The notes beneath the pieces were generated by a model. The model searched no databases. It worked only from the letters and a program-made list of their open reading frames with translations, and was not told the DNA's origin. Made by a program: the position numbers and the translations under genes. A DNA stretch of 64,000 nt, from the IMG/VR virus record IMGVR_UViG_3300025707_000655, positions 1 through 64,000 of that record; one strand, written 5' to 3'. The DNA is from a virus. Each line of letters opens with the position of its first letter. The stretch's first letter is position 1. Below are positions 1,105-55,800 of the stretch, one piece after another.

Positions 1105-1518
1105 ATGAAAAAGATATTTGAGCACTGGACTAAATTCATAAACGAAGCAGATATTGACCCTAGGGCCTTTGATTTATCAGGTCTTAACCAATCTATGTAC
1201 AACAAAAAGTATCCAGGATATTTAGAAAAGTTAAATAAGTTAAATTTAACTCTTCAGCACTACCAAGATTTTTCAAAAGAATATGATAAGAAAAAACCAG
1301 GAAGCGTAGTGCCTCTAGACAAGTTTGTCGACAATATTGAAAAAATCAAACAAATGTACCCAGAGGTGTTTGGTGATCAGCAAAAGTTCTCCTCTGCCCG
1401 TGCAAAACAAAGAGTGGAAAAGATGTATAATGCTTTATATCAAATGCAGGATCAATTGGTTGGTGGCAAGTACGAAAAAGCACTTGCGTCACTCAACGAC
1501 CTACTGAGGAGTCTATAA
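1105..1518 (+). CDS. Putative internal head protein with capsid-targeting N-terminus
   Basis: The 137-residue protein begins with a short amphipathic segment, M1-K-K-I-F-E-H-W-T-K-F-I-N-E14, ending in I-N-E. T4 internal proteins IPI-IPIII carry a similar N-terminal capsid-targeting sequence that the gp21 prohead protease removes after (L/I)-x-E. Two other genes in this run (1520 and 2925) have the same pattern with Glu at exactly residue 14. The predicted mature protein (about 15-137) is helical, basic and Lys/Tyr-rich, with no enzymatic motif that I recognise. The start ATG overlaps the 12-base palindrome CATACTAGTATG at 1096-1107. The packaged-protein role is inference from the N-terminus. 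Confidence 0.75.
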   Translation: MKKIFEHWTKFINEADIDPRAFDLSGLNQSMYNKKYPGYLEKLNKLNLTLQHYQDFSKEYDKKKPGSVVPLDKFVDNIEKIKQMYPEVFGDQQKFSSARAKQRVEKMYNALYQMQDQLVGGKYEKALASLNDLLRSL

Positions 1519-1519
1519 A

Positions 1520-2248
1520 ATGAAGCTCATAATGGAAAATTGGAAAAAGTTTTTGAATGAATCTGACTACAGTTCAACGCCAGCACAACTATCCACGAAA
1601 GATAAAAAACAGGCAGAGGAAGCGATAAAGCAACTCATAGCACTACAGTTAGGTGCCGACGCTGCAGCAGCAGACGCAGATAGCGAACTTGCAGAGAGGC
1701 AAGGTGAAATAGAGGAGACACGTCGGTCACGATCGCGCAGGAAAGAAAGAATTCAGCGTACAAAAGAGATTAAAAAACTGGCAGGCTTAAATGGTATCAA
1801 GCTAACAGACTTCACTCCAGAACAGAATGAGTTGTATAAACAGACAAAATTATCACTTACAAGAAAAGAAAAAGAAGAACAAGACGTGATGGCATCGACA
1901 GTCGCGCATAACCTATCCAAAGGCGACCTGTTGCAAAACCCAATTGCTAAAAAGATCTTAGATAAACTACCAGATATAGTAAAAACAGGATTACTGGCTG
2001 CGGCAGGTGATGATTGTCTACAAAGTGGTGCAATAACTCTAACATGTTTGGTGCAAGGATACGGCCAAAATTTTGGAATGCTAGAAGAGGAAGATGGAAG
2101 TAGACTAGCCGAAAAGAAAAAGAAAAAGAAAAAAGATGATCGTTGTACCAGAATAGCGAAAAGAAAGTATGATGTATGGCCATCTGCTTATGCTTCAGGT
2201 GCTGTAGTGAGATGTCGCCAAGGCAAGATCTGGAAGGGTGAGAAATGA
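1520..2248 (+). CDS. Putative internal head protein with polylysine / Cys-pair tail
   Basis: This 242-residue protein starts two bases after the preceding gene ends. Residues 1-14 match the capsid-targeting pattern (K-L-I-M-E-N-W-K-K-F-L-N-E14). The middle is an Ala- and Gln-rich helical region followed by an Arg/Glu-rich coiled segment. Near the end a second (L/I)-x-E site, L-A-E198, is followed directly by seven Lys, then a 35-residue basic module with Cys209 and Cys232 and the phrase VWPSAYASG. I recall similar VWPSAYASG modules in other aquatic phage and large-virus proteins, but cannot verify this here. Cleavage at E14 and E198 would release a strongly basic 44-residue peptide, suited to binding DNA. 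Confidence 0.75.
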   Translation: MKLIMENWKKFLNESDYSSTPAQLSTKDKKQAEEAIKQLIALQLGADAAAADADSELAERQGEIEETRRSRSRRKERIQRTKEIKKLAGLNGIKLTDFTPEQNELYKQTKLSLTRKEKEEQDVMASTVAHNLSKGDLLQNPIAKKILDKLPDIVKTGLLAAAGDDCLQSGAITLTCLVQGYGQNFGMLEEEDGSRLAEKKKKKKKDDRCTRIAKRKYDVWPSAYASGAVVRCRQGKIWKGEK

Positions 2249-2928
2249 CCAATAAAGAACTTTTAAATATTATTGAAGAAGAGTTACAGGGATTCTTGAA
2301 TGAACGCTGTCAGAAGGGTTACAAAACTCATTCAACCACTAAAACAAAAAAGATGTACGGTAAGACATACAGAAACTGTGTAAAAGCTGATGAAGGTAAA
2401 GTTTCGTTATCAGAAATTGTCGAAGAAGATTTTAAAATCGATCCAAACATACATAGCGGAGTGAAACAATTAGAAAAGATAAAACTTTTCACTATGCACA
2501 GAGACGCAGCAGTCAATCGAATGAAGGCAGTTCTTGCCGCCACAAACGACGAAAGAACATCTGACTTTATGAACAGTATGATCAGGCAACTTATGACTAG
2601 GAGCGAACCAGGGACCAGATTCTCTAAACCTCACTTAAGCGAAAAACAATTATCTGCCTTAGAGAGAGTCGAGAACCGATTGGGTATTCAAGTACCACCT
2701 GAACAGGCGGATCTACCAACACGAGAGGAGGTTGGTGAAGCATCCGACTATTACCATAATGTTATTCAACATCAACGTAATGCTGAGATGTTAGCAAAAA
2801 GAAATAACAAGGAGATAGATGAAATTATCGACGAAGAGATTGACCTCTACCTCAATGAGAAGAAGAGAAAAGAAGATCCCAACCCAAATCGCAGGGGTAA
2901 AGCGAAAAACGTAAAACAAAAGAAATGA
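2245..2928 (+). CDS. Putative internal head polyprotein with basic Cys-pair module
   Basis: The 227-residue protein overlaps its neighbour by an ATGA. Its N-terminus differs from the other members but still ends in F-L-N-E20. Directly after that lies a basic module with Cys22 and Cys45, the same C-x22-C spacing as the module in the preceding gene, closed by L-S-E57. The middle (58-205) is helical. L-N-E205 precedes a basic 22-residue C-terminal tail with about half Lys/Arg. If the prohead protease cuts at these three sites, the gene yields two basic peptides and one central domain. Chance (L/I)-x-E matches are expected in a protein this long, so the exact cut set is uncertain. Confidence 0.7.
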   Translation: MTNKELLNIIEEELQGFLNERCQKGYKTHSTTKTKKMYGKTYRNCVKADEGKVSLSEIVEEDFKIDPNIHSGVKQLEKIKLFTMHRDAAVNRMKAVLAATNDERTSDFMNSMIRQLMTRSEPGTRFSKPHLSEKQLSALERVENRLGIQVPPEQADLPTREEVGEASDYYHNVIQHQRNAEMLAKRNNKEIDEIIDEEIDLYLNEKKRKEDPNPNRRGKAKNVKQKK

Positions 2929-3521
2929 AACTTATAATAGAAAATTGGAGACGGTATCTAAGCGAATCTAGATTTAAGGGATTCGAAAGAGAACTTAAAA
3001 GTAAAGTATTTCCTCATTTACCAGATTTTGTATTTAATGATATGTACGGTCATGAAGGGACAAAAGATTATGCTATTGATAGGTCTGAAGATATTAATAA
3101 AATAGGATTAGAGAAGTTTTTTAAAACAGATGAGTTTGCGAGAAGCGTTTACGATAGATACAATTTAAATTGGGCCAAAAAACCTGTTATCTTGAAATTA
3201 CAGTGGGAAGATATAGAACCAGAAGAAAGGAAGTTTTTAATGGATAAGCATTTGGGATTAAATCCAAACTTTCCTATGGACAAGTATAGAGAAAAAATTC
3301 AGCGTATTATCGATACTCTCCCAGGATTGGGTAGTGGCGATCACGAACCTGTTATAGTTAAAATGGAAGGCGATAAAGTTGTAGATATCTTGGGCGGCCG
3401 CCACAGAGTTTTTGCTGCTTTTCTTAAAAATAGTGAAACTGACAACACTGGAGAGATTAAATTTAATCCAACAAAAATTAAAGCATATGTTGGAAGGCAG
3501 GGAAAAAACAATGAAGATTAG
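2925..3521 (+). CDS. Capsid-targeted ParB/sulfiredoxin-like domain protein
   Basis: This 198-residue protein starts with the capsid-targeting pattern M1-K-L-I-I-E-N-W-R-R-Y-L-S-E14. The C-terminal third resembles the ParB N-terminal/sulfiredoxin fold: a hydrophobic strand with EPVIVKMEG, then I-L-G-G157-R-H-R161 followed by a helix and a final strand ending in KAYVG. The G-x-H-R loop is the nucleotide-binding signature of that family, whose members include CTPases, nucleases and other nucleotide-using enzymes. A packaged and injected enzyme, by analogy with T4 Alt, would fit. The fold call is moderate and the activity unknown. Confidence 0.7.
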   Translation: MKLIIENWRRYLSESRFKGFERELKSKVFPHLPDFVFNDMYGHEGTKDYAIDRSEDINKIGLEKFFKTDEFARSVYDRYNLNWAKKPVILKLQWEDIEPEERKFLMDKHLGLNPNFPMDKYREKIQRIIDTLPGLGSGDHEPVIVKMEGDKVVDILGGRHRVFAAFLKNSETDNTGEIKFNPTKIKAYVGRQGKNNED

Positions 3522-3624
3522 AAAGTCTAACCCAAAGGCGAGAAAAAGCTTTAGAGCAAGGCACAACTGCAAGAACCCAGGCCCCAAGACCAAGGCAAGA
3601 TACTGGTCTTGTAGGAAGTGGTAA
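3511..3624 (+). CDS. Very small basic Cys-pair protein
   Basis: The ATG at 3511 lies inside the end of the preceding gene (11-base overlap) and is preceded by GGCAGGG. The 37-residue product has about 14 Lys/Arg, no acidic residue, and a C-terminal module with Cys20 and Cys34 plus aromatics (RYWSCRKW). It is the third basic Cys-pair module within 2 kb. Unlike the other two it is free-standing and lacks the targeting segment. It could bind nucleic acid or packaged DNA. Function unknown; reality is supported by coding overlap, ribosome site and motif. Confidence 0.65.
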   Translation: MKIRKSNPKARKSFRARHNCKNPGPKTKARYWSCRKW

Positions 3625-4728: not shown

Positions 4729-4770
4729 AATAGATAGACTTCTGCATTAGAATGTGATACTGTGCTTTCT

Positions 4771-5373
4771 ATGATCAGGATAATTAAAAAGATTCCCAAA
4801 AAAGTGACAATTGCTTGCTCCGGCGGTATCGACTCGATGGTCTTTACTAGCTTCTTGCTCCAAGGGAAGAAAGACATAGAATTAGCTTATTTTAATCACG
4901 ACACCGCTTTTGCGAGAAAGTCTGAAGACTTTGTAAAGGGGTATGCCGAAAAGAACAAACTAAAATTGCACGTCGGTAGAGTTGTGGGTAGAAAAGAGAA
5001 GCGCTCCCTAGAAGAGTTCTGGAGAGATGAGAGGTATGGTTTCCTCCAGAAATTAGACAGCGACTTTATTATCACCTGTCATCACCTGGACGATTGCGTT
5101 GAGACTTGGCTGATGTCTGCATTTCACGGTCAAACAAAGCTGATCCCGTTTCAAAGAAATACCAATATTTTTAGGCCCTTCCTGATGACCAGTAAGACAG
5201 CGATAAAGCAGTACGCTAGAAACAAAGACGTCAAGTGGACAGAAGACCCATCAAATCAACTAACCAACTTTATGAGAAACAGGGTGCGCCACAAAATCAT
5301 CCCACAAGTACTTAAAGTAAATCCAGGAATAAGAACTACGATAAGAAAGAAATTGATTGAAACATATTTGTAA
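4771..5373 (+). CDS. tilS: Minimal tRNA(Ile)-lysidine synthetase (TilS)
   Basis: TilS uses ATP to attach lysine to C34 of tRNA-Ile2 (anticodon CAU), switching it from reading AUG to AUA. The protein (about 200 residues) has the PP-loop S17-G-G-I-D-S22, the YFNHD strand, the HHLDDCVETWLM motif and the late WTEDPSNQ...RNRVRHKIIP segment, all in TilS order. It is essentially only the N-terminal catalytic domain, lacking the C-terminal extensions of the E. coli enzyme. I chose the ATG at 4771; a GTG at 4762 is also in frame. No clear Shine-Dalgarno is present, but a weak extended -10 (TGTGATACT, 4753-4761) may give an almost leaderless message. The tRNA gene follows 24 bases downstream. Confidence 0.88.
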   Translation: MIRIIKKIPKKVTIACSGGIDSMVFTSFLLQGKKDIELAYFNHDTAFARKSEDFVKGYAEKNKLKLHVGRVVGRKEKRSLEEFWRDERYGFLQKLDSDFIITCHHLDDCVETWLMSAFHGQTKLIPFQRNTNIFRPFLMTSKTAIKQYARNKDVKWTEDPSNQLTNFMRNRVRHKIIPQVLKVNPGIRTTIRKKLIETYL

Positions 5374-5397: not shown

Positions 5398-5471
5398 GGG
5401 CCTATAGCTCAATCGGTTAGAGCATCTGTCTCATAAACAGAAGGTTTCTGGTTCAAATCCAGGTGGGCCCA
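5398..5471 (+). tRNA. tRNA with anticodon CAU, probably tRNA-Ile2 (AUA-reading)
   Basis: A complete cloverleaf folds from this 74-base stretch: 7-bp acceptor stem with one G-U pair, 4-bp D stem (GCUC/GAGC), 5-bp anticodon stem with loop CUCAUAA, and T arm with loop UUCAAAU. The discriminator base is A and no CCA is encoded. G1-C72 excludes a standard initiator. Positions 4 and 5 are C, paired with G69 and G68, which are acceptor-stem features TilS uses to tell tRNA-Ile2 from elongator tRNA-Met. With tilS immediately upstream, Ile2 is the better call than Met. Confidence 0.9.
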
Positions 5472-5492
5472 CAAACTAAAAGGGAGAAAAAA

Positions 5493-6023
5493 ATGAAGAA
5501 AGTTATTTTAACACTATTGACACTTGCATTGATTGTGCCATCACTAGCTATCGCACGCGATACATCCGATGAGGCTGGTAAATGGACCAAGCGTTCGGGA
5601 ATTAGATTCGGGTATGTTTACGCCAATAAGGCACACAAACCAAACTCGGAAGGTAAAGAATCGGAACTCCAAAGTCCGCATATGTTTACAATGGGACTGG
5701 AGTTACAACAGACGATGCCAGGCGGCGACTGGTTAGACGTGTTGTTTATTCAGAACTTGAGTCTGTCTGGGTTGGATCAGAGCGTTGTTTCACCATCCGT
5801 GCGTGCTTTGATCGGGTTTGAGATTGACAAGTCTTTACAGATCGCTGTAGGTCCAAATTTATCATTCCACGATCCATCAGGGGAGGATAAATTCATTCAC
5901 CTGATCGGCGCAGTCGGATACACTATGAATGCTGGTATGTTCAGCGTACCAGTACACTTTAGTTTCGTACCCGACGTCAATGACTATTGGGCGACTGCAA
6001 TCACTACTGGCGTAAACTGGTAA
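5493..6023 (+). CDS. Exported outer-membrane beta-barrel-like protein
   Basis: The ATG at 5493 follows AGGGAG with good spacing; an in-frame GTG at 5463 lies inside the tRNA and is rejected. The 176-residue product has a clear Sec signal peptide (residues 1-21, K2-K3, Leu-rich core, cleavage after A19-I-A21). The mature part alternates polar and hydrophobic residues with Gly and aromatics, as in small outer-membrane barrels, and ends in Trp, close to the C-terminal aromatic typical of barrel proteins. A phage-encoded barrel in the host outer membrane could act in superinfection exclusion or lysis; both are inference. Confidence 0.75.
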   Translation: MKKVILTLLTLALIVPSLAIARDTSDEAGKWTKRSGIRFGYVYANKAHKPNSEGKESELQSPHMFTMGLELQQTMPGGDWLDVLFIQNLSLSGLDQSVVSPSVRALIGFEIDKSLQIAVGPNLSFHDPSGEDKFIHLIGAVGYTMNAGMFSVPVHFSFVPDVNDYWATAITTGVNW

Positions 6024-6052
6024 AATACAAACATAAAAAAAGGAGTACGTTC

Positions 6053-6685
6053 GTGAGAGATCAATACTGGGGTTCTGAAAAGGAGAAAGAGGAAGTCACA
6101 AAGAAGGTGACATCACCGATGGATCTGGAGTTATCTGATAACGCTGACTTTAATCAAGTTGATCATTCTGGAAATAGGATTTATTTTTATTCTGGCGTGT
6201 CTCGCCCAAAAGTTTTAAAAATGAATAAGCTGATTTTCAACCTGAACTACAACTTATTGCCAAAGAGCCATTTTTACGATTGTGGAAAGCCTGTTATCAA
6301 GCTTCACATTAACAGTTACGGAGGGTCGGTTTTTGCAGGCCTTTCTGCTGTTGATCATATTATAAATTCTGAATTGCCTATACACAGTGTGGTTGACGGC
6401 TGCGCAGCATCTGCCGCAACTTTAATGTCGATAGTAGCTGATAAAAGGTATATTCAAAAGAACGCTTGTATGCTAGTTCATCAGCTTTCTGGTGTGATGT
6501 GGGGCAAGTACGCTGCGATGAGGGATGATATGGAAAATTCTAAAATGCTTATGAAGAAGATCAAGAACATTTATAGAGAGTACACTAAGATCCCTGAACA
6601 TAAAATGAATGACATCCTGAAACACGATTTGTGGTGGGATGCCGAAAAGTGTCTTGAGTATGGATTAGTCGACGAGATTATTTGA
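6053..6685 (+). CDS. clpP: ClpP-like serine protease
   Basis: I place the start at the GTG at 6053, which has AAGGAG upstream. The 210-residue protein has the ClpP fold signature. The IKLHINSYGGSVFAGLSA segment precedes the nucleophile Ser120 in GCAASAATL, the general-base His143 sits in MLVHQLSG, and an Asp (192 or 196) precedes the CLEYGLVDEI terminus. Spacing between Ser and His is close to that in E. coli ClpP. It could pair with host ClpX/ClpA or process phage head proteins; the (L/I)-x-E sites nearby would classically be cut by a gp21-type protease, which is not in this window. The N-terminal 35 residues are acidic and family-atypical. Confidence 0.85.
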   Translation: MRDQYWGSEKEKEEVTKKVTSPMDLELSDNADFNQVDHSGNRIYFYSGVSRPKVLKMNKLIFNLNYNLLPKSHFYDCGKPVIKLHINSYGGSVFAGLSAVDHIINSELPIHSVVDGCAASAATLMSIVADKRYIQKNACMLVHQLSGVMWGKYAAMRDDMENSKMLMKKIKNIYREYTKIPEHKMNDILKHDLWWDAEKCLEYGLVDEII

Positions 6686-39759: not shown

Positions 39760-42700
39760 ATGATTAATAAAAAACTACTAACTCAAAAAGACTTTCTCCT
39801 CGTTTCAGACGTCGGTACGAGTGTAAACTTTCACTTGCCTCTGTCAATGGGAGCCAAAGACACTAATATTTTGGTCCTAAAAAAGTTTCTTGGACTGCCT
39901 GACAGTAATGCCCTGTTTGACGCGGACACGAAAAGCCACCTTATGAGGTGGCAGAGGCAGAACGTTGATACTATAAGTAAGATTGCGGGCTGGTCACCAC
40001 TCGACAACAGCAGTCTAGATACTCCTGCTGAATTTGACTTTGAGCTTGGTTCTCTTGGCCCAGCAACATTTAGCGCAATGTCCGTCGCTGGCCTGAGCCC
40101 CCTAACCTCAGATTTCTTTTACAGTGACCCTCACACTGTAGTCACACTACCATCGGTAACGCTACCAGAGGGGGGGATCACCCTTGCTGACTGTGTTGAT
40201 CCGGTCTTGAGGGAACTGGAATCAGTAACACCAGAAGCGATTCTGGAACCGGACAATATATTAGAAAGCTTGAGACCGTCAGAAGTCGTCAACGAGCCGT
40301 TTAAGGATCCAGATTATTACTACGTTGTTACTTCAATCGGCGTAACTCGAAGCCAGCTCGGCGGCACAAGCATCGAGTCGTACCTTAAGAACAACGGAAC
40401 TGATATCCTTGCTCGCGGCGTAAGGGAAATGTTCAAATATTATAATAAAGAAACCCAGTGGGAAGTAGACTTATCTACAGATGCGGGAAAAGCGTTCTTG
40501 CCCATAATCAAATACCAAAAAAGACCACTAGAGAACACAAGGTGTGTCTTAACTGTCGACGACCTAAACATTCTTGAAACGGTAGGTGCAGATGAGTCGG
40601 GAAAATCCATCAATGTTTTATTTGGCCAAAGCACTGCAGAAGGTGACCAGCCCATCTTTGCAGCCGTAAAAAAAATATACATACCAGAGACTCGCGCAAG
40701 CTCCACCTTTAAAGCGCTTGTTCGTGTTAGAACAGAAATGTTTGACTTAATTCCGCGAGCCCCTATAACAAGCACTACCGCCTTTACTGAACTGGTGGAT
40801 ATAGACGAGGAAATTGCCCCAGTATTGGAAGAGGTTGCGCTTAGGTTAAAGTCACTAGGCTTGGATGTAAGCAATTATGATGAGGACGCTCTAATCCAGA
40901 AGTCTAGAGATGCTCTGGCTGTAAAAAAGTTTCTTAAGAAGTATGAGAGAGAGTTGTCAATGCTGAGACAACAATACGATTTGGGGATAAAATCTGCATC
41001 TGAGTTAGTGGATCTAGAATCTGCGAAGGAAGCCGCAGATTTTGCAAAGAAAAGGATGGACTTCGAGCCTTTTCCGGTGACAATCCCGTACAAGATTTCA
41101 GATATTGAACAGGATGTCAAAGCTGCTATTAAACTGATGAAGTCGTACGACAAACAGGTAAAGTCATTCTCCGAAACCGGAATTAAAATAAAGCCCGAGA
41201 ACTTGTCATTGAACAAGGAGGCCGATCGTTTATCTCGACTTCTTGGTAAACTAAAGAAGTTGGCAAAAGATAACGATTTTATAATAAGCAAGGAAAATTC
41301 TGGAACGTTATTGATATCTTATGAGCCGACCATAAGACCGGGTGAGGGCATAGGGGGATTCGCTGGTGCAAAAATAAAGAAAATCGCACTGGTGTCTTTA
41401 AACGATGTGCCTGGTGTTTTAACATCTGGATTTGAAAGTTTTCTCAACTCTAGTCCGATTACAAACTCTACGACAGTCAGTTACTTAATGCAATTACCAC
41501 TGTTGAAGAAGCAAAGAAATGTTCAATCAAACAACACATCGATCTCTCAAAGCCCCAGTAGTTATGGAAATGCGTCCGCATTCCTGTTGAAACACCATCA
41601 CCCTACGCCGAAGATTGATTTTAATTTAGCAGACGTGGACGTAAGACAGGTGTTGAATAGTCCTATCAACCTTGTTTCCAAATCTTTAAATGTTGATTTA
41701 GACCCTGGGTTTTTAAACGCGAAGAATACGCTTTATAAAAATGCAATTGAAGGTGCCTACTCTGTGACTGACAAACTGAACTACGATATGGACTTCTCAG
41801 ATCTTGGAGAGTTGTTTGCTGAGTTTTTCGATAGGTACGATTTCTGGGCACTGTTTATAGACTATCTTAAAATATTGCCCGACGTGAATGCGGAAGAGGT
41901 TTTGTCGGAATGGGATTTTGATTTTAAAATACCTGAAATACCAAAGCTCCCAACGTTTGATCCAATTAAACTTATCGTTAAGAATCTAGAGGTCGCGATT
42001 TCAGATATACTTACAAGTCTCTTAAGTGGGTTGATCAGGGATATTTTAAAGACGTTATCGAAGAACGCGCCAGATCTTCTTGGAGGTGCCGTTGGAGACA
42101 TAAAGATAAATGATCTCATAAACGGTAAACTATCAAAAGACTTGATGCCTAGCATTTCAAACTCTCAAGTGTACGGGGGCACAGGCCCCAGCGAAGTAGC
42201 GAGAATAACGACGGTTGCAATAAAGTCTTTTGAAAGAGTTGGGGTTCCAACAAATATGCTGGCCAATATCGCTAACATATTTGAAAGCATATCCTTGGCC
42301 TTGACTCCAAACGAGATATCCTCGTTATTAACCGGCAACGCGGACAAAGACACTCTAGGCATAATATTGACTGTAATAAAATCAGATTGCTCAGACCTAA
42401 AGAATTACGTTCAAGATACGGGAGTCGTTCAAGAAATTTTTGAAACTGTTGGTGATTTTGTAAGTGATGACCTTTTAAACAAGATTTCACAAAACCCAGA
42501 CATAGTGTTAGGCGATGTTCGATGTCCAGATGATATCGGCGCTGGCGATATACTTCTTAGAGAAACCTTAGAGTCAGCGAATGCATCTGAGGATGAAATA
42601 TCAAGAGCGCTTGCCGACGCATCTGCAAGAAGGGAGGCGATGAGAGGTTTGCTCAAAAAGAACCCTATGGATGCCCTTGTGGCGGAGTTAGGGCCTCAAA

Positions 42701-45700
42701 GCTTGCCTAACCCATATATGAACGAAAACAGTCTCAAACTGGCGGGATTGGCCTCTAAGGGCGTGTTTGGAAACATAGAGATGGTGTTTGACAACGATCT
42801 ATCTGGATATGTCCCGACATTTTATGAAGCTTCACAAAGACCGCTAAATCCAGATGACCCAGAATATGACCACGTTGGTATGGCACAACACGAGTTTGTA
42901 CGCCGTCAGGTCGAAGAACCAAATCCGGCCGATGATCATTTTACCAAAATTAAAAAACCAGGCGTCATCACTATTGATGATAATGGGAGAGTTACAAATG
43001 TAGAGCCAGCCCCTGACTTAGTTTTCAATTTAGCTGACAAGATTGACTCGGACTTGTTTGAAAAGATAATGCTAATCCCTTCAAAGAACATCAGACAGGA
43101 GGCGAGTATCTTTCCCTCATTTAGGAACTATCTTTTGGAGCCAAAAAACAACTTTGTTGGAATAACCTCTGGACCATATCCAAAGTTTACAGGCATAGAG
43201 TTTACTGGCCTTCTTGAATTAGCGTTCGATCTTGCTGGGACATACGACCTCGAAAAGCAAGGCCCACAATTACAATATAGAATAAACTCTACAACCAAGT
43301 TTCCACAAGATAATTTGGAGCAGTTTACTGATTCAGTTGTGGACAATCGTGTTAAAGATCAATTCAATTGTCAAATAGTAGATCAGTTCTTCGTCCACAC
43401 TCCAGAGGACTGCTTTCAGGTTGATAGACCTGCTCGCGTTTTTGAAAGTGAGTTGAGACAAATGCAGACCTTCAATTATCACGAAGAGATGTCTGAACAA
43501 TTAAGAGACCTCAGATTGTCTGCACCGGATATGCAAAACACTGATACAAAGAAGCTTTTAAGGCCAGAAGCCTTTGCGCAATTTGTAAGGAACTCCCTTG
43601 AGAAAAGCGTGGAAGAATCAAAAATTAACAGGCTATATTTCAGGGACCTGGCGGAGAATAGATACTTTACAGAGCCAATGTTAAAAAACTGGAACACTGA
43701 CTCAATTCTATGGAAAGCGATTTCATACGGAGATACAGATGAATCGAGCTACGAACTTTCTCATTTTACAATGTTGTCTCAAAACTTTATGGACAAGATT
43801 GCCGAAAGCGTCTCGACTTCCAGATACTTTAATGTAGGACAAATAAGCGAATTATCAACAAGAATCTCCGAAAAGTATTTTGAAGATGTAAGGTCTGATA
43901 AGGTTTGTCTTATAAAGAACAAAGATCGCCCAATAGACTTCGAAAAGATAAGACAACAAGCAATGGAAGACTATAAAGATTCGTTAAGTAGGGAAGAAAA
44001 TAATCCAATAAATAGAGACTTCAGCAAACCAGGCCCTCTCGAAGAAAGCTTTTCTGATCAACTAGTATTTTTGTATATCAGAACTTTTGTCATCGAGTTT
44101 ATTTTGAAGGGTATCTTTCTTTTTTCTAGATTTAGACCTTCACAAATTCTAGGTCAGGATTTTATTGTACAGTACCTATATGATTATATGGAGACGACTC
44201 TTGAGAGAGATTTTCAAAACTCTCAACAATATAAGATAAACTTTTATGACAGAGTTAAGAAAATAGCAAATCAATCTGACAATAAGGATGCGTTGGTGTC
44301 GGTTATAGCTAAACTAATGCAAGACGTTCAGCAGGAAGTTATCACAATGGCAGAGGATTTGTTTGAACCAGAGTTCTCATCTTACAAAGAAGAATTCTTT
44401 AGTCAATTAATTGATCAATATGAGTCGAGCAAGAGTGTCTTGTCCCGCTCTCAAATTTTTGGCGATTCCAGACCTAACAGTTTGTACTTGGACTACTCAT
44501 CCTATCCTACCCTAGGTCGGCAAAATCCTCACGGACAATTCAGGGTAGAACAGTATTTTTATGTAAAGCCACCGCAAAATGATCCAAACTATTTGGCAAA
44601 AGCGATTGATGCTCTGTATTATGCTTTGGCGACCGCGAACGGTCAAAGAGACTCGTCCGAAAACAGATACAGGCTTTATGCTAAAAGGCAAGATGGACAA
44701 AGAGATAATAGATTAGTTAATCCAGACTTGCACTTCGCTTTAAGCAGGAGAATGACACTTGGCGAGTATGAACAACTGTTAGAGGTTCTCAACACCCCAG
44801 TCGCACCGGATTTTATAAACAATGAAAGCGGAACAAGTTTTCAAAATGCGCTGCATTATGTTTTGGAAAATACTGTAGTTGGTTTACGATTGATTTACAT
44901 CCCTGGATATGAAACGTTTCAGTTGACCGCCCCTGTGTTTACAAATTTCGACGAATATCAAGGCGACATCGGCATTTTTGGTAGCACGTCTAGCAAAGAG
45001 GTTGTTATTGGCGAAGGGGGTGGGTCTATCCCAATAAACCTGTCTAATTACTCTCAATATTTATCATCTATGAAGCTCGGACCAGTCAGAGTCGATCAAT
45101 TTGAACACTTTGTATTTGAGTTAGCAAAGGTAGAAAACCTTGTTGATTGTATGGGCAATTTTGCCATATACACAAACAGCAGAATACAGCCAAGAGAAAC
45201 AGCGGAGAACGTATTTAATTCATATGAGGACACACTAATAAACTCTTTACTTGGATTGAAAGATGGAAAAATTATAAGCGAAGACTACAATTCCGACGTC
45301 AAAATGTTATTCGAAGAGATTTTCCCACTAAATCGTATGGCTGCACTGTATTTTATAAATGAAGAAAACTTTTTCGATTCAAAACGTGGATTTAGAGACT
45401 TTCTTGGTGGGACTAGAGGGTCGATAAGATCTATGTACAGGATACTGCAAAACAAAAAATCTATAGGTTCTGGCGATGAAGGCCTCATAAGTGGCGATGA
45501 ATATCCTGCTGTGATGAAGGGTAACCAAGGCGCTTCTGGTCCTTTTGGGAACGTAGCGGAAGCACTCTTGGGTGATCTGGTTCCGCAGATAGCAAAGATG
45601 GTGGTAATGGCACCTATAATCGCTATAAAGGGACAGGCAGCACTCGTAGACCCAGCATTCGCTCAGATGAAGAAGATATACGACAGAGACCCCTGTAAGT

Positions 45701-46128
45701 TGAGAGATGGGTTGTCTTGGGGCTCCATAAAGAGTCCTCCATATTTATCTTCAAATTCGAGCAGATCATTCACGTCTGGATATTTAAACACCGATGACAA
45801 TACAGTTGCACCACTGACTTTGGCAGCACCCGTTGATATTTCTTTGTCTGTACTTCAGATAATCAGCGGCATCTTTCCGCCCAATGCAGGCAAAGTCCGA
45901 CGAGGTGTAGCGAGTTTATTAAAGTCGGTGAACCATACAGTAAACTCAGTTTCCCAGAGATCAGGCAATGCGTACGGACCATTTCTCGGTCCAGTTGGAT
46001 TTTTAGCACTTTCGTTACCACACTTACCAGGCGAAGAGCCAGGAAGAAGACAAAAACAAGCAAACTGCACGGTCGAAGGGGCAAACCCGGCAGGACTACC
46101 GGTAGAGATTTGCGAGGAGGAAGAATAA
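39760..46128 (+). CDS. Giant structural protein (2122 aa) with peptidoglycan-binding-like domain
   Basis: The N-terminal 25-110 residues have the repeated shape of PG_binding_1: ILVLKKFLGLPDSNALFDADTKSHLMRWQRQN followed by GSLGPATFSAM. Residues about 350-460 are coiled-coil-like (EEVALRLKSLGLDV to KEAADFAKKRMDF). Segments near 720-800 are amphipathic helices rich in Ile and Leu. About 1920-1990 has hydrophobic stretches and the C-terminus two Cys. No T4 counterpart that I recognise. Lying between hub candidates and gp25, it should be a baseplate or tail-tip component contacting the cell wall. Confidence 0.75.
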   Translation: MINKKLLTQKDFLLVSDVGTSVNFHLPLSMGAKDTNILVLKKFLGLPDSNALFDADTKSHLMRWQRQNVDTISKIAGWSPLDNSSLDTPAEFDFELGSLGPATFSAMSVAGLSPLTSDFFYSDPHTVVTLPSVTLPEGGITLADCVDPVLRELESVTPEAILEPDNILESLRPSEVVNEPFKDPDYYYVVTSIGVTRSQLGGTSIESYLKNNGTDILARGVREMFKYYNKETQWEVDLSTDAGKAFLPIIKYQKRPLENTRCVLTVDDLNILETVGADESGKSINVLFGQSTAEGDQPIFAAVKKIYIPETRASSTFKALVRVRTEMFDLIPRAPITSTTAFTELVDIDEEIAPVLEEVALRLKSLGLDVSNYDEDALIQKSRDALAVKKFLKKYERELSMLRQQYDLGIKSASELVDLESAKEAADFAKKRMDFEPFPVTIPYKISDIEQDVKAAIKLMKSYDKQVKSFSETGIKIKPENLSLNKEADRLSRLLGKLKKLAKDNDFIISKENSGTLLISYEPTIRPGEGIGGFAGAKIKKIALVSLNDVPGVLTSGFESFLNSSPITNSTTVSYLMQLPLLKKQRNVQSNNTSISQSPSSYGNASAFLLKHHHPTPKIDFNLADVDVRQVLNSPINLVSKSLNVDLDPGFLNAKNTLYKNAIEGAYSVTDKLNYDMDFSDLGELFAEFFDRYDFWALFIDYLKILPDVNAEEVLSEWDFDFKIPEIPKLPTFDPIKLIVKNLEVAISDILTSLLSGLIRDILKTLSKNAPDLLGGAVGDIKINDLINGKLSKDLMPSISNSQVYGGTGPSEVARITTVAIKSFERVGVPTNMLANIANIFESISLALTPNEISSLLTGNADKDTLGIILTVIKSDCSDLKNYVQDTGVVQEIFETVGDFVSDDLLNKISQNPDIVLGDVRCPDDIGAGDILLRETLESANASEDEISRALADASARREAMRGLLKKNPMDALVAELGPQSLPNPYMNENSLKLAGLASKGVFGNIEMVFDNDLSGYVPTFYEASQRPLNPDDPEYDHVGMAQHEFVRRQVEEPNPADDHFTKIKKPGVITIDDNGRVTNVEPAPDLVFNLADKIDSDLFEKIMLIPSKNIRQEASIFPSFRNYLLEPKNNFVGITSGPYPKFTGIEFTGLLELAFDLAGTYDLEKQGPQLQYRINSTTKFPQDNLEQFTDSVVDNRVKDQFNCQIVDQFFVHTPEDCFQVDRPARVFESELRQMQTFNYHEEMSEQLRDLRLSAPDMQNTDTKKLLRPEAFAQFVRNSLEKSVEESKINRLYFRDLAENRYFTEPMLKNWNTDSILWKAISYGDTDESSYELSHFTMLSQNFMDKIAESVSTSRYFNVGQISELSTRISEKYFEDVRSDKVCLIKNKDRPIDFEKIRQQAMEDYKDSLSREENNPINRDFSKPGPLEESFSDQLVFLYIRTFVIEFILKGIFLFSRFRPSQILGQDFIVQYLYDYMETTLERDFQNSQQYKINFYDRVKKIANQSDNKDALVSVIAKLMQDVQQEVITMAEDLFEPEFSSYKEEFFSQLIDQYESSKSVLSRSQIFGDSRPNSLYLDYSSYPTLGRQNPHGQFRVEQYFYVKPPQNDPNYLAKAIDALYYALATANGQRDSSENRYRLYAKRQDGQRDNRLVNPDLHFALSRRMTLGEYEQLLEVLNTPVAPDFINNESGTSFQNALHYVLENTVVGLRLIYIPGYETFQLTAPVFTNFDEYQGDIGIFGSTSSKEVVIGEGGGSIPINLSNYSQYLSSMKLGPVRVDQFEHFVFELAKVENLVDCMGNFAIYTNSRIQPRETAENVFNSYEDTLINSLLGLKDGKIISEDYNSDVKMLFEEIFPLNRMAALYFINEENFFDSKRGFRDFLGGTRGSIRSMYRILQNKKSIGSGDEGLISGDEYPAVMKGNQGASGPFGNVAEALLGDLVPQIAKMVVMAPIIAIKGQAALVDPAFAQMKKIYDRDPCKLRDGLSWGSIKSPPYLSSNSSRSFTSGYLNTDDNTVAPLTLAAPVDISLSVLQIISGIFPPNAGKVRRGVASLLKSVNHTVNSVSQRSGNAYGPFLGPVGFLALSLPHLPGEEPGRRQKQANCTVEGANPAGLPVEICEEEE

Positions 46129-48333: not shown

Positions 48334-49871
48334 TGGCGATTAAGAGATTTTTCTGCACTGCGGACAATACAATCACAAATGCCTTCAAGCACGGCCTTAT
48401 AAATAGGGGGACGGGTTCTAATATGGGGGCCTCTGACGTTTTGGAAGTGTTTTCTATTCTCGGCCAGGCATCAACAAGCTCAGTTGAAAAATCGAGAGCG
48501 TTATTAAATTTTCCAGTTTCCGACATCCTTACGAAGAGGAACAGCGGCGACTTGCCGTTGTCTGGGAACGTGAAGTTTTTTCTTAGAGTGTTCAACGCCC
48601 CTCACGGTCAGACCCTTCCAAAGAATTTTGATATGGCTGTATTGCCAATTTCAAAGTCTTGGGACGAAGGCCCTGGGTTGGATATGGAGGGTTACTCTGA
48701 CGAGTTTGCATCAAATTGGATTAAACCAACTCAGGCAACTAGTTGGGTAGCGCAAGGTGGGGACTTTCACGAGGTGGGGTATACTGCTGGAAGAAATCTC
48801 CCACATTACAAACAAACTTTCACAAAAGGGGTAGAAAACCTAAGCGTAAATGTTACTGCGTTAGTCGAAGAATGGCTGGTCGCAGAATCAACAGTAGACC
48901 CAGATCGAGAGAATTACGGCGTGATGCTCAAAATGTCTGGCACGTTCGAAGATGGTTCAAAAAACAGGTCATTTTACACAAAGAAATTCTTTTCTAGATC
49001 GACTGAGTTCTTCTACAAACGGCCTATGATAGAAGCCAGATGGGATGATTCGATTCCCGACGATAGAAACAGTTTTTATCTTAGCAGTTCTTTAATGTCG
49101 GGCGAGGATAACTTGAATACATTGTACTTGTACAACGTTGTGAGGGGTCGACTCAAGAACATACCCGCCCTCGGAGCGAATTCTGGAAGCAATAGTGCAC
49201 ACACATCGATACATTTGCAAGTATTTCCGTCTGGCAACATAAAAAATCAAGTGATCAAGCCTAAAACCCTTCCAATCGGAGGTGGCGTCACCGTCGCCGG
49301 AGCAACTGTAGTCACTGGGGGTTGGGTTTCTACGGGTATATACTCGGCATCTTTTGCTTTCACAGGCTCTGAAAAAGAAATATTTGATGTGTGGAGCAAG
49401 CCAACTAGCGTTGTGCAAGGTGTGCAGCTCGTAACAGGGTCAAACTTCAGGGTAAGGACGCACACAGCGGCAGATTACAACCCAAGCACAAGTTATACAA
49501 CTACGATAACAAATTTAAAGACAGAGTATCAACAGTCCGACAACACTAGAATTAGGTTATTTGTTCGTGAAAAGAATTGGCAGCCGAATATTTATACCGT
49601 CGCATCAAATAACATAGAGGGTTACACGATAGAAAACGGTTACTACAGGATCTTCAGGATTATTGACGATCTTGACATAATACCGTTCGGTACTGGCAGT
49701 GGCCAGCAAACCGACTACACCAAACTCTCTCACGATAAGAATGGAAACTATTTTGATTTAGATTTTTCTAATTTAGAATCTGGTTATTCTTACGGAATTC
49801 AGTTTATGTATGAGACAGATGGCAAGAACACAGTTCAGGATAAAGTTCATAAGTTTAGAGTAGGGAAGTAA
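48333..49871 (+). CDS. Structural protein with DNRLRE-like domain
   Basis: The 512-residue protein follows gp6 on a TAATG overlap. Residues about 30-230 match DNRLRE-type beta domains: a strand with VKFFLRVFNA, PISKSWDEGPGLDMEGY, and NLSVNVTALVEEWLVAESTVDPDRENYGVMLK, where the T-x-L-V-x-x-W and NYG elements recur in that family. The rest is Ser/Thr/Gly-rich beta structure. Probably part of the peripheral baseplate. No T4 homologue known to me. Confidence 0.7.
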   Translation: MAIKRFFCTADNTITNAFKHGLINRGTGSNMGASDVLEVFSILGQASTSSVEKSRALLNFPVSDILTKRNSGDLPLSGNVKFFLRVFNAPHGQTLPKNFDMAVLPISKSWDEGPGLDMEGYSDEFASNWIKPTQATSWVAQGGDFHEVGYTAGRNLPHYKQTFTKGVENLSVNVTALVEEWLVAESTVDPDRENYGVMLKMSGTFEDGSKNRSFYTKKFFSRSTEFFYKRPMIEARWDDSIPDDRNSFYLSSSLMSGEDNLNTLYLYNVVRGRLKNIPALGANSGSNSAHTSIHLQVFPSGNIKNQVIKPKTLPIGGGVTVAGATVVTGGWVSTGIYSASFAFTGSEKEIFDVWSKPTSVVQGVQLVTGSNFRVRTHTAADYNPSTSYTTTITNLKTEYQQSDNTRIRLFVREKNWQPNIYTVASNNIEGYTIENGYYRIFRIIDDLDIIPFGTGSGQQTDYTKLSHDKNGNYFDLDFSNLESGYSYGIQFMYETDGKNTVQDKVHKFRVGK

Positions 49872-52800
49872 TGAGTTTAAATAATTTATTTGATAAAAAT
49901 AAATCAAAACATATCCAAAAGCCCACAAACTCTAACCAACTGTTAGAAGATGTTGAGTCTATTGACTATATCGAAGAATATATTCGCAACAAATATAAGT
50001 ATGAATCTGTTGTAGACTATTCTACTGCATCCAACTTTGCAGTGTACGGCTCCGCAGAAGAGTACTACAAGTCATCTATAGAATCTATTTACCAGAACTA
50101 TCCATACGACGGATCCGCCAAAGAGAAGCTAGAGTGGGTAAACGATTCAAATCCGCTCCAGATTTACCTCTTTGAAAAGGAATATCCAAGAACCAACGGC
50201 TTTGTTAGGTTCAACCCAGGAAGTAGTATATCAACGGTTTCTACTTCAGGTTCGGTCAATAACCATAGAAACCCGACAGTAAAAGAATATATCTCTTTAA
50301 AGGGTGGTCCTCACATCGACAATATCTGGAACACTTCCAGTTACAGGACCTCAAACCTTGAGATAAACGCAAGCAAAGGCAACACTGTAGAGTTCTGGCT
50401 GAAGAAAGACGCTTTCAGTGCGAGCAATCGCAGAGAAGTCTTACTGGACATTTGGTCTTCGTCTTCATTGCCAGATCATCACGAGTATGCGAGATTTACC
50501 ATTGAGCTTGACCAGCAAAACGCTGCTGCTAGTTCTACACCCTTTGTAGTCACCTACAAATCTGGATCCGCAGGTGTTCACCAAGCGGAATTGGGAAGCT
50601 CACACTTAGCGACCAGCGCTTCCGATGGAAAGTGGCATCATTACGCAATCACAGTTCAAAATACAGGTAGCAATCTTTCTTGGGGTGTCTACGTTGACGG
50701 AGCTTTGGATAAAGCGGTTTTGTCTGGTTCGACGGTTGACAAGGTAAATCGAAGACTAGTGGGCACGATCGGCGCTCTTGCAACGGGTAAGGCCGGAAAG
50801 GGCGAAGCTGAAGATCCTCCGTATAACACAGTCGGCAACTCTAACTTGGGATGGGGCAAGCTGTCTGGATCACTAGACGAATTCAGATACTGGAAGACTA
50901 AAAGGTCTCCGAAGGAGATCGCGAGACACTGGTTTACACAAATCAATGGCGGTACTAATACAGACGAAGCAAACTCCAAGTTGGGTGTTTATTATAAATT
51001 CAATGAAGGTGTGTCCTTAACATCGAGCGTGGACAGTTTGGTTTTGGATTACTCTGGCAGGCTTTCTAACGGTATTTTTGTCGGGTATACAGACAGCAAT
51101 AGATCGACTGACTCTGCGATAGTCAAGTCTGGTGTTGCTAGTAGCGAGTTTAAAGATCCTATAATACACACAGAAAACCCACGACTCAACAAGTTCGTGG
51201 ATGAGAAGACTGATGCAGGTCTACAAAGAGACTTGGCAAATTCTAGTTGTCTAATTCATACAATCCCTGCTTGGGTTTTGGAGGAGGACGGTGAGAGAGG
51301 CCAAACAAGAAAACTGTTACAAATAATAGGATCCTATTTCGACGTCCTTCACGCTCAGATTGGACAGCTTCCAAAACTTAAGCATCTAGAATACAACGAT
51401 TATGATGAGGTGAAGCCGTTTCCTTTCATGTCACAAGTACTGGCCTCTCACGGTTTAGATACTACGGAGATGTTTTTAGACGCCACCGCCCTAGAAGTAC
51501 TGGCCGATAAAACAGAAGAGTTCGAGTTCGAGCAAAAGCTTCACGATATAAAGAATTTTATATACAGAAATCTCTACAATTCACTAGTAACAATAAATAA
51601 GTCGAAGGGAACCGAAAAAGCATTCAGAAACATACTGAGGACTCACGGTGTGGACGAAGAGCTTATAAAGCTCAAGGCGTATTCCGATAACGCTACTTAC
51701 GAGTTAAAACCGAACTACGAGGCCGATTCTGTCAAGAAAAGGTATGCAAACTTTCAAGGTGTGAACAAGTCAGCGACAATTTTTCAATACAGCTCAAGTT
51801 TTGGTTTGGATACAACATCTGCAGAGTTGCCAACAAGAGGGTTCATAACCGGATCAACTCTTGGCGACACAGGTTTATCCTTCACTACACAAGCTGAAAT
51901 AATATTTCCCCATTTGTTTCCAGAAAATGACAACACTGGAAGGTATAAGTCTACGCCCATATCGTCGTCCTTGTTTGGGGCACACACGGTTCAACAGGGA
52001 GACTCGACAAGTAACCTTACGTTTAGAGCTTCTGACAAAGACTTTGCCAACTTTGAAATCTTAGCTGCAAAAGAGGAAGAAGACTCAAAGAATGCTAGGT
52101 TTATATTAAAGTCGACCTCTGGGATAATATCTGAACAACAAACCAAAGTATTTAGAGATGTGTACGATGGCGAGAAATGGAACTTTGCCTTTAGAATAGC
52201 TCCATCTGGTAGTTCCTTTGGTAGTTTAATTAGTGGTTCAAATGCTGCGTATACAGTCGAATTGTTTGGTGTAAATGTAGAAGCCGGACAGGTAAAAGAC
52301 AAATTTAAACTATCTCAAGACATAACCAAGGCCCAAGGCGCAGACTTTCATAAGTTCTCTAAAAGAATATTTGTGGGCGCACATAGGAGAAACTTTACAG
52401 GATCAGTCCTACAACAATCAGATGTAAAGATATCTTCAGTACGACATTGGGTAAAGTACTTAGATGATGAGACCATCACAAAGCACGCTGTAGACCCAAA
52501 AAATTATGGAGTAAAAGATCCTTATGAGAGCGCATTCTCTCTGCAGCCGGGTATAGACAATCACATACCGAATATAGAGACTCTCGCGATGAATTGGGAC
52601 TTCGCAATGATTACTGGCTCTACTGCTGGAGGCCAGCTAGTAGTTCAAGATTTCTCTTCTGGTTCAATTGATAAGGTGACGAGCTATGGAGATATAGGTC
52701 AGATAGTAGCGTACAACCATCCAGCTAGAGGTGATTTTTTTGAGGCGAGTTCTACATCCAGCATAGCATTGGAATACGTCCCGGCATACAGACAAAGGGA

Positions 52801-55800
52801 ATTCGAGAACATTGTCTCATCGGACATGATAAGAATTCTCTCGGATGATGACAAGACCTTTACCAGAGGCTCCAGGCCCGTAAACTATGTCTTCTCCTTT
52901 GAAAAGAGTATGTACCAGTCTATCTCACAGGAAATGATCGATCTCTTTTCATCGATAAGAGATTTTGGCAACGTCATAGGGGAGCCTGTAGACAGGTATC
53001 GCCAGACCTATAAACCACTAGACAAACTGAGAGCGTTGTTTTTTCAAAACGTAGAAAACGACCCAGACGTAGAAAAATATATCGAGTTCTATAGGTGGAT
53101 TGACGACTCGTTGTCCACCATTTTGGACCAGTACAAACCAGCTAGTACGACGTTCACTGACGGTATAAAGAATGTTATCGAGTCCCACGCCCTAGAGAGA
53201 AATAAGTATTGGGCTAAATTTCCTACTTTGGAGATGAAGCAGGCTGATCCCGAAGGTAGAATCTTAGGTATAAACGAACTGACATATGACTGGGAGCACG
53301 GTCACGCGCCTCTTCCCTCGACCGTTGGGCCCGTCAGTGCTACAGCTACAATTACCTTTGCTGACGTTGATGGTGGCAGTATTGACGGCGGTGCAATTAC
53401 AATAATATCTACAGATGGAACAAGCAGGGTGTATATCCCAAAGTCTGACGCAACAGCTTCGGATCTACACTTCGACCAGGATAACGGATTTGATGACAAG
53501 GCGGCAGCACTAAAGACAGCTATTGAAAGCGCTGGTGGGCACAATGGAAAAATTACTGTATCCCGAACTGATAATGTTTTAACGCTAACTCAGGCAATCT
53601 CAGGGGACACCGGAAATACTACCATAACAGAAACCGTTACCGACTGCACGGCGGTTAGCTTTACAGGCGGCGCTGACATCTTGCTGGAACAAAGTGAGAA
53701 CTGCCGATGGTGGAAAGACAGGACCAACAGAAAGGCAACAAGAATCTCGACAGGCGATGCTGCCGTCGACGCGCAAAGAGAGACATTAAGAAAGAGGATA
53801 AATACAGTCGCCTCCGGGTCGACTTATACTCTCAGAAGGCTTACAAAACCATACAAACTAGAGGCAGGTATCCAGCACGTTCTTCACGGCGGATCAAACT
53901 TTCACCTGAACAAAAAGTTGGACTTCTTTAAGGGAACGACAAACCCTGGCAGCAACGACTACATAAGAGTTAGTGGATCAGACATTGATGCGGGCCCAGT
54001 TTGTGATGATGTTAATATTCCTAAGTATAGATTGCAGGGCGGACAGGTATTTGAAAAGAAGAAGTTCCGAGGCACTGCTGATATAAGCGACACAAACAGA
54101 GATTTTGATATTGGTACGGTTCTTCCATTCAGCCTTTACAGTAGTTCTATAGACGTTCCGACAGATTATAAGAAAGAGATATACGACAACTTCAAGAAGG
54201 GTGTTGAGATAACAAACCTTCACGATGACGCTTACGGCGATGACAGGGAGATACCAATACAGGGCCCGTTCACCCAGCATCACGTCGGTGGCCACTTCCA
54301 CAGGCACATAGAACTGAACAGAAGCGCAAGTGTTAGTATAGGGAGAAAGTCAAAGGCAGGTACATACAAAACTGGGCTAGACGGGAGATCGGACAGAAGG
54401 GAAGCTTTTTTTATAAGCGCCTCACACAATCAATTGTATGTTTTAAACCCAGATATGGAAGGTTCGAATTTTACTGGGCAGTCCCCATCTCTATTTAAAG
54501 TATCTTTGACTAGTTCGTACGCTGGTCGTTCAAACGTACTGAGAGATCCTCTTGCAAAGAGGCCAGTCAACATTCGAAACATAAAAACATCTACAGCTAG
54601 TTTGAATCTCGGCAACTACCAGCACGACTATCAGATCGTTCTTGGCACTTCTGTTGAGATGTCGAAAGATCACATTGTTGAGAATGAGAAGAAGACTTAT
54701 TCGGTTGATCACTTCCTCTCTCACTCTTCCGATAAGGGTGGGTATGTAGCCACTAACTTCGGACTAACAGAAGAGTTCTCTTCATCCTACTTTTATGGAT
54801 ATAAAGATACAGTGAGACCAGAAAGAGAAGTTAAAAAACATTTAATTACTAGCAGATTTTCATCGCCAGGTGGCCCTGAGACTGCAGGGACAGCCCACGG
54901 CGGCCCTCACATAGACACTGCGACAAATCAGATATCAGCATACAGTTCTCTAAACTACAGGAATCTAACTCAAAGAATGATGTTGGATGTTTTCGCAGCG
55001 GAGAGATCAGAAGCTTTCGGTCATAGGTTTTTAAGTTCTGTAAGCTCTTCGACACCTAGTGCGTCTTACCACAAGACTAACAGAAACCACAGATACGCTG
55101 CGATTTCTAATGGAGGCAGCGACGATATATTTGTAAGGTCTGACAACCTCTTTGTTCAGCATCAGATACCGCAAACTGACCTTGGCTACGCCTGGATTAG
55201 GAATTCGACCATAGAGACTACAGGAAGTTACAGAAGGTTCGAGTCTGATTTTACTGAGCCAGTTGAGTTTGGGACAAGTGCTCAAACATCCTCTTCACCA
55301 CTGTTCTTAAGTGCTAGTGAAGTTGGGTCGTTCAAAACGAATATCAATATGGATTTATTTGGCGCTGCCATTCAGGATGGAGCATTACAATCGTCTCCAC
55401 AATCAAGATTGCTTTTGGCTACGAAACAGATCATCCAAAACGATAAAAATAGATTCATTGATTTCACACCGGTTGACTTTGCTGGCTTGAGAACGATAAT
55501 TTTGGATAATGTTGACAAAGACAGTAATATACTTGGATATGACGCTGCATCAAAAACAACAGTAAATGTTGGAACGAGCCCATCACCAAACAAATTCGAC
55601 CTCAGTGATTTCAATTACATCAATGACGAATTTTTGAATTCGAATCAAACCGTCAACGAAGGTGCATCGACTGTTGACCCATCTGGACAAATGATTGATG
55701 GTCTAACCGGTTCTCAAGGCGCTATTGGATCTCATTTGTTGTTAAATGCTATAATCTCAAACCGAGGCGGGCAATATGGATACCCTTCTTGGAAACAATT

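Follow-up and report, generated by a model that had tools for sequence, protein, structure and literature searches.

Four consecutive genes near the start of the DNA that we analysed (the window: positions 1-64000 of an 85,116-base IMG/VR record that is linear and incomplete) encode proteins with short N-terminal segments that are highly likely to be capsid-targeting propeptides and that probably load the four proteins into the phage head for injection. The record belongs to a T4-like myophage, which was judged from its relatives to be marine. The four ORFs point in the same direction (1105-1518, 1520-2248, 2245-2928 and 2925-3521) and are tightly spaced or overlap by 4 bases (2245-2248, 2925-2928). 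The N-terminal segments fall into two classes, denoted W tag and K tag, and the features of the region are the following:

3-680, + strand: 3' part of an ORF for a 444-aa acidic protein (whole in contig G060), preceding the tag cluster
744-1073, + strand: 109-aa ORF, a conserved neighbour of tag clusters in the relatives L054, L056 and L256
1105-1146, + strand: W-type tag of protein 1, MKKIFEHWTKFINE, followed by AD; predicted cut after E14
1105-1518, + strand: tagged protein 1, 137 aa; body all-helical by low-confidence prediction, no known family
1520-1561, + strand: W-type tag of protein 2, MKLIMENWKKFLNE, followed by SD; predicted cut after E14
1520-2248, + strand: tagged protein 2, 242 aa; phrog_727 match (8e-9), lysine-rich C-terminal WPSAYASG module
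2245-2304, + strand: K-type tag of protein 3, MTNKELLNIIEEELQGFLNE, followed by RC; predicted cut after E20
2245-2928, + strand: tagged protein 3, 227 aa; exactly behind the tag starts a cysteine/lysine module, RCQKGYKTH...MYGKTYRNCVK
2925-2966, + strand: W-type tag of protein 4, MKLIIENWRRYLSE, followed by SR; predicted cut after E14
2925-3521, + strand: tagged protein 4, 198 aa; C-terminal half weakly ParB/sulfiredoxin-like, ortholog in the relative G061
3511-3624, + strand: 37-aa ORF, MKIRKSNPKARKSFRARHNCKNPGPKTKARYWSCRKW, overlapping the end of protein 4

The preliminary description of this region had noted three proteins that start with MKxIxExWxx[FY][IL]xE and carry a glutamate at residue 14, and these are indeed the products of ORFs 1105-1518, 1520-2248 and 2925-3521; the full motif was absent from all other ORFs in the window. 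It had also grouped with them a fourth protein of which the N-terminal segment ends in FLNE at E20. That ending was found as described, and the segment represents a second class (the K tag) and not a longer W tag. The proteins behind the segments are unrelated, as had been proposed: an all-against-all blastp gave no detectable similarity between the three W-tagged ones, and no match was found among the four in profile-free searches. The comparison that had been drawn with T4 is likewise sound, since the internal proteins IpII and IpIII start with MKTYQEFIAEA. For targeting in T4, 10 N-terminal residues of IPIII are enough, and the prohead protease gp21 cleaves behind L/I-X-E (PMC9026906). All four tags in the window end in L/I-x-E. 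Structure predictions of low confidence for protein 1 (pLDDT 63) and protein 4 (pLDDT 57) both place a helix over the tag that ends at residue 14. The tag of protein 1 is a predicted amphipathic helix with a hydrophobic moment of 0.45 (0.17 when shuffled); the helical moment was not significant for the K tag and for the capsid-targeting sequence (CTS) of T4.

Pfam and PHROGs gave no function for bodies 1 and 4 and no match of any of the four bodies to the internal-protein families IPI-III. Proteins 1 and 4 have few relatives: protein 1 was found in this phage only, and protein 4 had no relative among the isolate phages searched. The second half of protein 4 (in the model with pLDDT 57) matched viral folds of ParB/sulfiredoxin proteins (E 0.02-0.05), ParB in the PDB (E 0.26-0.3) and a ParB PHROG (E 0.18), and a comparison with the sequences of solved structures returned weak ribosomal-protein matches only. 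In protein 2, the WPSAYASG module, which is also found in cyanophages (including gp160 of Synechococcus phage S-CREM2), is preceded by LAE|K (E198), and in protein 3 a second module, EDPNPNRRGKAKNVK, follows LNE205. The 37-aa ORF at 3511-3624 is a stand-alone version of the module SFRARHNC...ARYWSCRKW, which elsewhere closes larger proteins at their C-terminal end, with a W or K tag on several of them.

To see how widespread the W tag is, a DNA pattern for MKxIxExWxx[FY][ILMF]xE at a start codon was scanned across IMG/VR. It was found in at least 120 stretches, versus 2 for a control in which the W and E codons were exchanged, and thus chance is excluded; the reversed pattern gave no matches in 30 phage records, and the expectation from composition is ~3e-9 per gene start. 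Among the matches listed there were 119 distinct W-tagged proteins, the bodies of which fell into 64 blastp clusters (the largest recurring one with 18-21 members). In these 119 proteins the information per column is high through residue 14, drops to 1.1 bits at residue 15 and is ~0.4 from residue 16 onwards, and positions that the pattern leaves free are conserved as well (L3 in 96, N7 in 77 and R9 in 61 of the 119 listed). Identity at third codon positions within the tags is 0.54, compared with 0.75 at first and second positions, and this far larger variability at third positions implies that selection acts on the peptide. When only residues 1-8 were specified, I, L, M or V stood at position 12 in 136 of 145 proteins and E at position 14 in 130 of 145, the latter count being biased towards E14 because most loci had been fetched with E14 in the pattern. 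Additional matches in selected records showed the full pattern in 14 of 31 cases, with several others having V12 or the glutamate one place off, and a strict W start occurred in two of 17 records that were fetched by portal similarity. When the bare W and K tags were compared with isolate phages by tblastn (E up to 10), a search in which such short queries are insensitive, no convincing tag emerged. Upstream of the tag genes the late-promoter motif TATAAATA was not enriched; the sequence CTATTTA lies within 30 bases upstream of 11% of the W-tagged genes and of 3.6% of the other genes in the same loci.

The K tag has the consensus MKITKSQLKQIIKEEL...LxE and a length of approximately 20-22 residues, and its pattern also occurred in at least 120 IMG/VR stretches. 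The matches listed comprise 181 K-tagged proteins, of which 169 passed a length filter and formed 135 body clusters. The end of this tag is less sharp: among the matches listed, conservation fades past residue 16, the commonest later residue is E22 (61 of 181), and the first (L/I/V/M)xE triplet ends at residue 21-22 in 84 of 181. Protein 3 of the window shares 10 of 20 residues with the K consensus, a score that was reached by none of 20,000 shuffles.

Tags are exchanged between bodies. The WPSAYASG module was found behind W tags in L032, L247, L014 and L016, and behind K-like tags in an isolate, Flavobacterium phage immuto, and in L005, L055, L307, L359 and L075. Of ten GYKTH modules, a second copy of the window gene being counted among the ten, nine start exactly one residue past L/I/V-x-E and the tenth three residues past it; such a coincidence of domain border and protease motif is what a cleaved tag predicts. 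The bodies behind W tags include SAM lyase (two), M23 peptidase, NT5C, GNAT, DNA methylase, AAA_33 and HAD proteins, and those behind K tags pentapeptide repeats and AAA_33. Orthologous NUDIX proteins of two related phages, at L379:9690-10115 (- strand) and L380:3114-3524, have both kept a W-type tag of diverged sequence (MKEILKSWNSLLEQ versus MKLIMKGWRLFVNE).

The tagged genes of this phage extend beyond the window. Contig G060, DNA of the same phage, is 99.94% identical to window positions 1-21868 and reaches 17.5 kb further upstream. Encoded there with W tags are a PAP2 phosphatase (E 2e-9) and proteins of 120, 336 and 135 aa, the last on the opposite strand. Looser variants of the tag precede a NUDIX protein (E 2e-13), a protein of 150 aa and one that is nucleotidyltransferase-like, and a protein of 105 aa has a K-like tag. 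Head genes directly upstream of the window were considered and ruled out by this contig, in which tagged and metabolic genes occupy that place. In the 158 kb relative G061 there are an ortholog of protein 4 and a syntenic island in which other genes are tagged, a W-tagged NUDIX gene among them. The tags of the two protein 4 orthologs differ at five of 14 positions and keep M1, K2, I4, E6, W8, R9, Y11, L12 and E14, and between residues 15 and 45 there are no more than one or two differences (the K27 region and T46 being at the edges). The tag has thus changed more quickly than the adjoining part of the body, which is what a removable leader would be expected to show.

In approximately 30 loci a W-tagged gene was found inside the head operon, near the gene of a gp21-type protease. 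The order of genes in this operon is: portal, a conserved gene of ~275 aa, a gene of ~180 aa, the W-tagged gene, a gene of ~105 aa, often a K-tagged gene, and the gp21-type protease; in a few loci the W-tagged gene follows the protease instead. The interval from portal to protease is taken up in T4 by the core genes 67 and 68, and this is mostly the place of the W-tagged genes too. An S77 protease was found in 18 of the 28 other records with a W tag, including 13 of the 14 longer than 115 kb. The sole record of that length without it shares its exact tag with another record and may represent part of that phage. The protease lies on the strand of the tag gene in all W-tag records that have it, and was also found in 13 of 16 K-tag records and in G061, which carries the ortholog of protein 4. 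No such protease was detected in the incomplete record to which the window belongs and which breaks off within the portal gene. T4-like phages are numerous among the large marine ones, and therefore the co-occurrence of tag and protease is supportive, not decisive.

The capsid protein offers a second view on the specificity of this protease. T4 gp23 sheds a propeptide of 65 residues (PMC9026906), and its site LTE65|A aligned, in four relatives, to IVSE|A, LISE|A or LLRE|A. Given this conserved site and the L/I-x-E at the end of the tags, the tags end in a motif that the protease of this clade very probably cuts, and cleavage of the tags themselves is, as judged from sequence, probable. The propeptides of the capsid proteins (N-termini at L369:8946 for T4 gp23, L226:8656 for Syn9, L224:18897 for immuto, L145:16854 and L152:17167) contain a W, followed by 2-5 residues and (L/V)-L-E, which resembles the W tag (ENWRKFLNE). 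The W tag may mimic the core-binding propeptide of the capsid protein itself.

A link to virion content is provided by S-CREM2, in which the test covers tags of the T4 type and not W tags. In Table 3 of its virion proteome, ORF160 (gp160) is listed as detected by mass spectrometry (PMC10665884), and this protein carries two modules known from the window, WPSAYASG of protein 2 and GYK of protein 3. When all start codons of S-CREM2 were scanned for the T4-type form [MVL]Kx[FYWL]xx[FYW][ILM]xE, exactly four ORFs had a strict tag, all of them annotated genes: a SAM hydrolase (MKDFDSFLEE), gp13 (MKDLHSFLTE), a kinase (VKRFDAFLTE) and a cytidylyltransferase (MKNFSSFLTE). According to the table of virion proteins all four were detected (PMC10665884), versus 52 of 219 ORFs overall (hypergeometric p = 0.003), and with a looser form this holds for five of six (p = 0.003); both p values are indicative only, because the pattern, though close to the T4 sequence, was shaped after the N-termini had been seen. 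Carry-over of abundant proteins is mentioned as possible by the authors (PMC10665884).

We infer the following sequence of packaging, docking, cleavage and injection for this clade. A short amphipathic tag (14 residues for W, ~20-22 for K) would dock the newly made protein onto the scaffold core during prohead assembly, and the gp21-type S77 prohead protease would then cut after (L/I)-x-E, upon which the tag leaves. The mature body would stay in the head with the DNA and be ejected into the next host, so that the bodies would form an exchangeable, fast-turning set of cargo; for some tagged genes in the head operon the body would act in the core instead. The address tag that had been proposed earlier is borne out by its N-terminal position and fixed length, by the unrelated bodies directly behind it, by its being swappable, by its presence in the head operons of relatives and by the protease motif at its end, and an interchangeable capsid-targeting tag is the best supported reading.

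Three other readings of the shared N-termini were weighed against it. Tagged proteins could be core or assembly factors of the prohead that, like T4 gp67 and gp68, are processed and largely removed and not delivered. W- and K-tagged genes do fill the place of genes 67 and 68 between portal and protease in most of the ~30 loci, and some tagged families of the head operon recur (up to the cluster of 18-21 members among the matches listed), so that some of these proteins may be core components rather than injected effectors. As an explanation for the tags as a whole it is nevertheless unlikely, for the tagged genes are for the most part very varied, and among their products are enzymes without an evident role in assembly (PAP2, NUDIX, SAM lyase, DNA methylase, GNAT, NT5C), and enzymes of this kind are documented for the S-CREM2 virion in the protein table of PMC10665884.

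That the tag routes its protein elsewhere, for instance to the host membrane, RNA polymerase, the tail or a replication compartment, would fit the helix predicted over it, as short amphipathic helices serve generically as localisation signals. The protease motif at its end, the body modules that begin exactly there and the clustering of tagged genes with head genes in relatives make such a destination very improbable. The position of the tags at the 5' end of mosaic, fast-changing genes could finally suggest recombination footprints or recently duplicated leaders with no function of the peptide, but third codon positions are diverse while M1, K2, I4, E6, W8, F/Y11, L/I12 and E14 persist, and the tags of the protein 4 orthologs keep all key residues despite their five differences, next to a near-identical start of the body, which leaves this explanation with a negligible chance.

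Among the known systems, the CTS of T4 (IPI, IPII, IPIII) is the closest: it too is a short, interchangeable N-terminal MK... peptide with an (L/I)-x-E end, found on diverse bodies and served by a gp21-type protease. The W tag has only MK...F/Y-[IL]-x-E in common with MKTYQEFIAE|A, with no sequence homology; at 14 residues it is about one helical turn longer and has an invariant tryptophan, and the K tag of 20-22 residues is separate. The W-tag and portal-relative loci gave no instance of the strict 10-residue form of the T4 CTS. The range of W and K cargo is also far wider than that of T4, comprising enzymes and small Cys/Lys-rich modules. The best supported analogy is that the W and K tags work like the T4 CTS and differ from it in sequence: a longer tag containing tryptophan and a second class make this a variant of the CTS and not the same sequence. 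The likeness to T4 gp67 and gp68 lies in the gene position between portal and protease in relatives, whereas W-tagged genes also occur far from the head genes and with enzyme domains. The S-CREM2 proteins resemble those of the window in that the SAM hydrolase, an APH/ChoK-like kinase, the cytidylyltransferase and gp160 were detected by mass spectrometry, with T4-type tags on the three enzymes and on gp13, and modules shared by gp160; S-CREM2 differs in not using W and K tags, and a shared N-terminal tag is not mentioned in the sections of PMC10665884 consulted. In phiKZ and SPN3US head proteins lose N-terminal propeptides to a related prohead protease, several of these proteins are ejected, and SPN3US has two paralogs with 15 identical N-terminal residues; in contrast to the W and K tags, several of those propeptides exceed 100 residues and the motifs are A-x-E or S-x-E (PMC5694885).

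It has been stated for T4 that the CTS may be a general packaging route for various proteins in T4-like phages (PMC9026906), and hence the conceptual novelty of the present tags is limited. In the literature searched we found no description of the two tag classes, of their scale in uncultured phages or of their cargo range; six W-tag strings were absent from it, and no virion proteomics was found there for any W-tagged phage. Only a minority of the phage proteins that enter the cell with the DNA are known, and this applies especially to phages of the sea that are uncultured. A tag recognizable in the sequence is a search tool, by which any protein that carries a W, K or T4-type tag becomes a candidate delivered effector, and the W and K tags would add a new peptide with which proteins can be targeted to the phage head.

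The Lys/Cys-rich modules GYKTH, WPSAYASG, EDPNPN and DWF are strung together in single proteins (window 2245-2928 and 1520-2248, S-CREM2 gp160 at L385:48343-49236 and Syn9 gp114 at L123:5143-6474), often with L/I-x-E between them. An L/I/V-x-E lies within 15 residues of 24 of 44 module starts, where 2,000 random placements gave a mean of 13.8 and a maximum of 24, and this lends moderate support to the idea that such proteins could be polyproteins. A wider proposal seems to us possible, though less likely than not: the interchangeable dialects of the tag (W, K and T4 type) might constitute a general head-loading code of marine T4-like phages, by which a vast range of proteins would be delivered, anti-restriction and nucleotide enzymes among them, and some cargos would be polyproteins of small Lys/Cys-rich modules that the prohead protease cuts at L/I-x-E sites inside the head.

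Downstream of the tag cluster, the window contains a TilS-like ORF (4762-5373, by eye), a tRNA-Met (5398-5472) and a ClpP-like ORF (5987-6685, by eye). Positions 11898-34670 hold a long run of sugar and surface-glycan genes (recognized by eye from the translations) that is unusual in amount for a phage and includes: glycosyltransferases, a carbamoyltransferase, sugar epimerases/dehydrogenases, cytidylyltransferases and a NeuB-like synthase. Two very large ORFs, of 4311 aa (49871-62806) and 2122 aa (39760-46128), probably lie in the tail/baseplate region.
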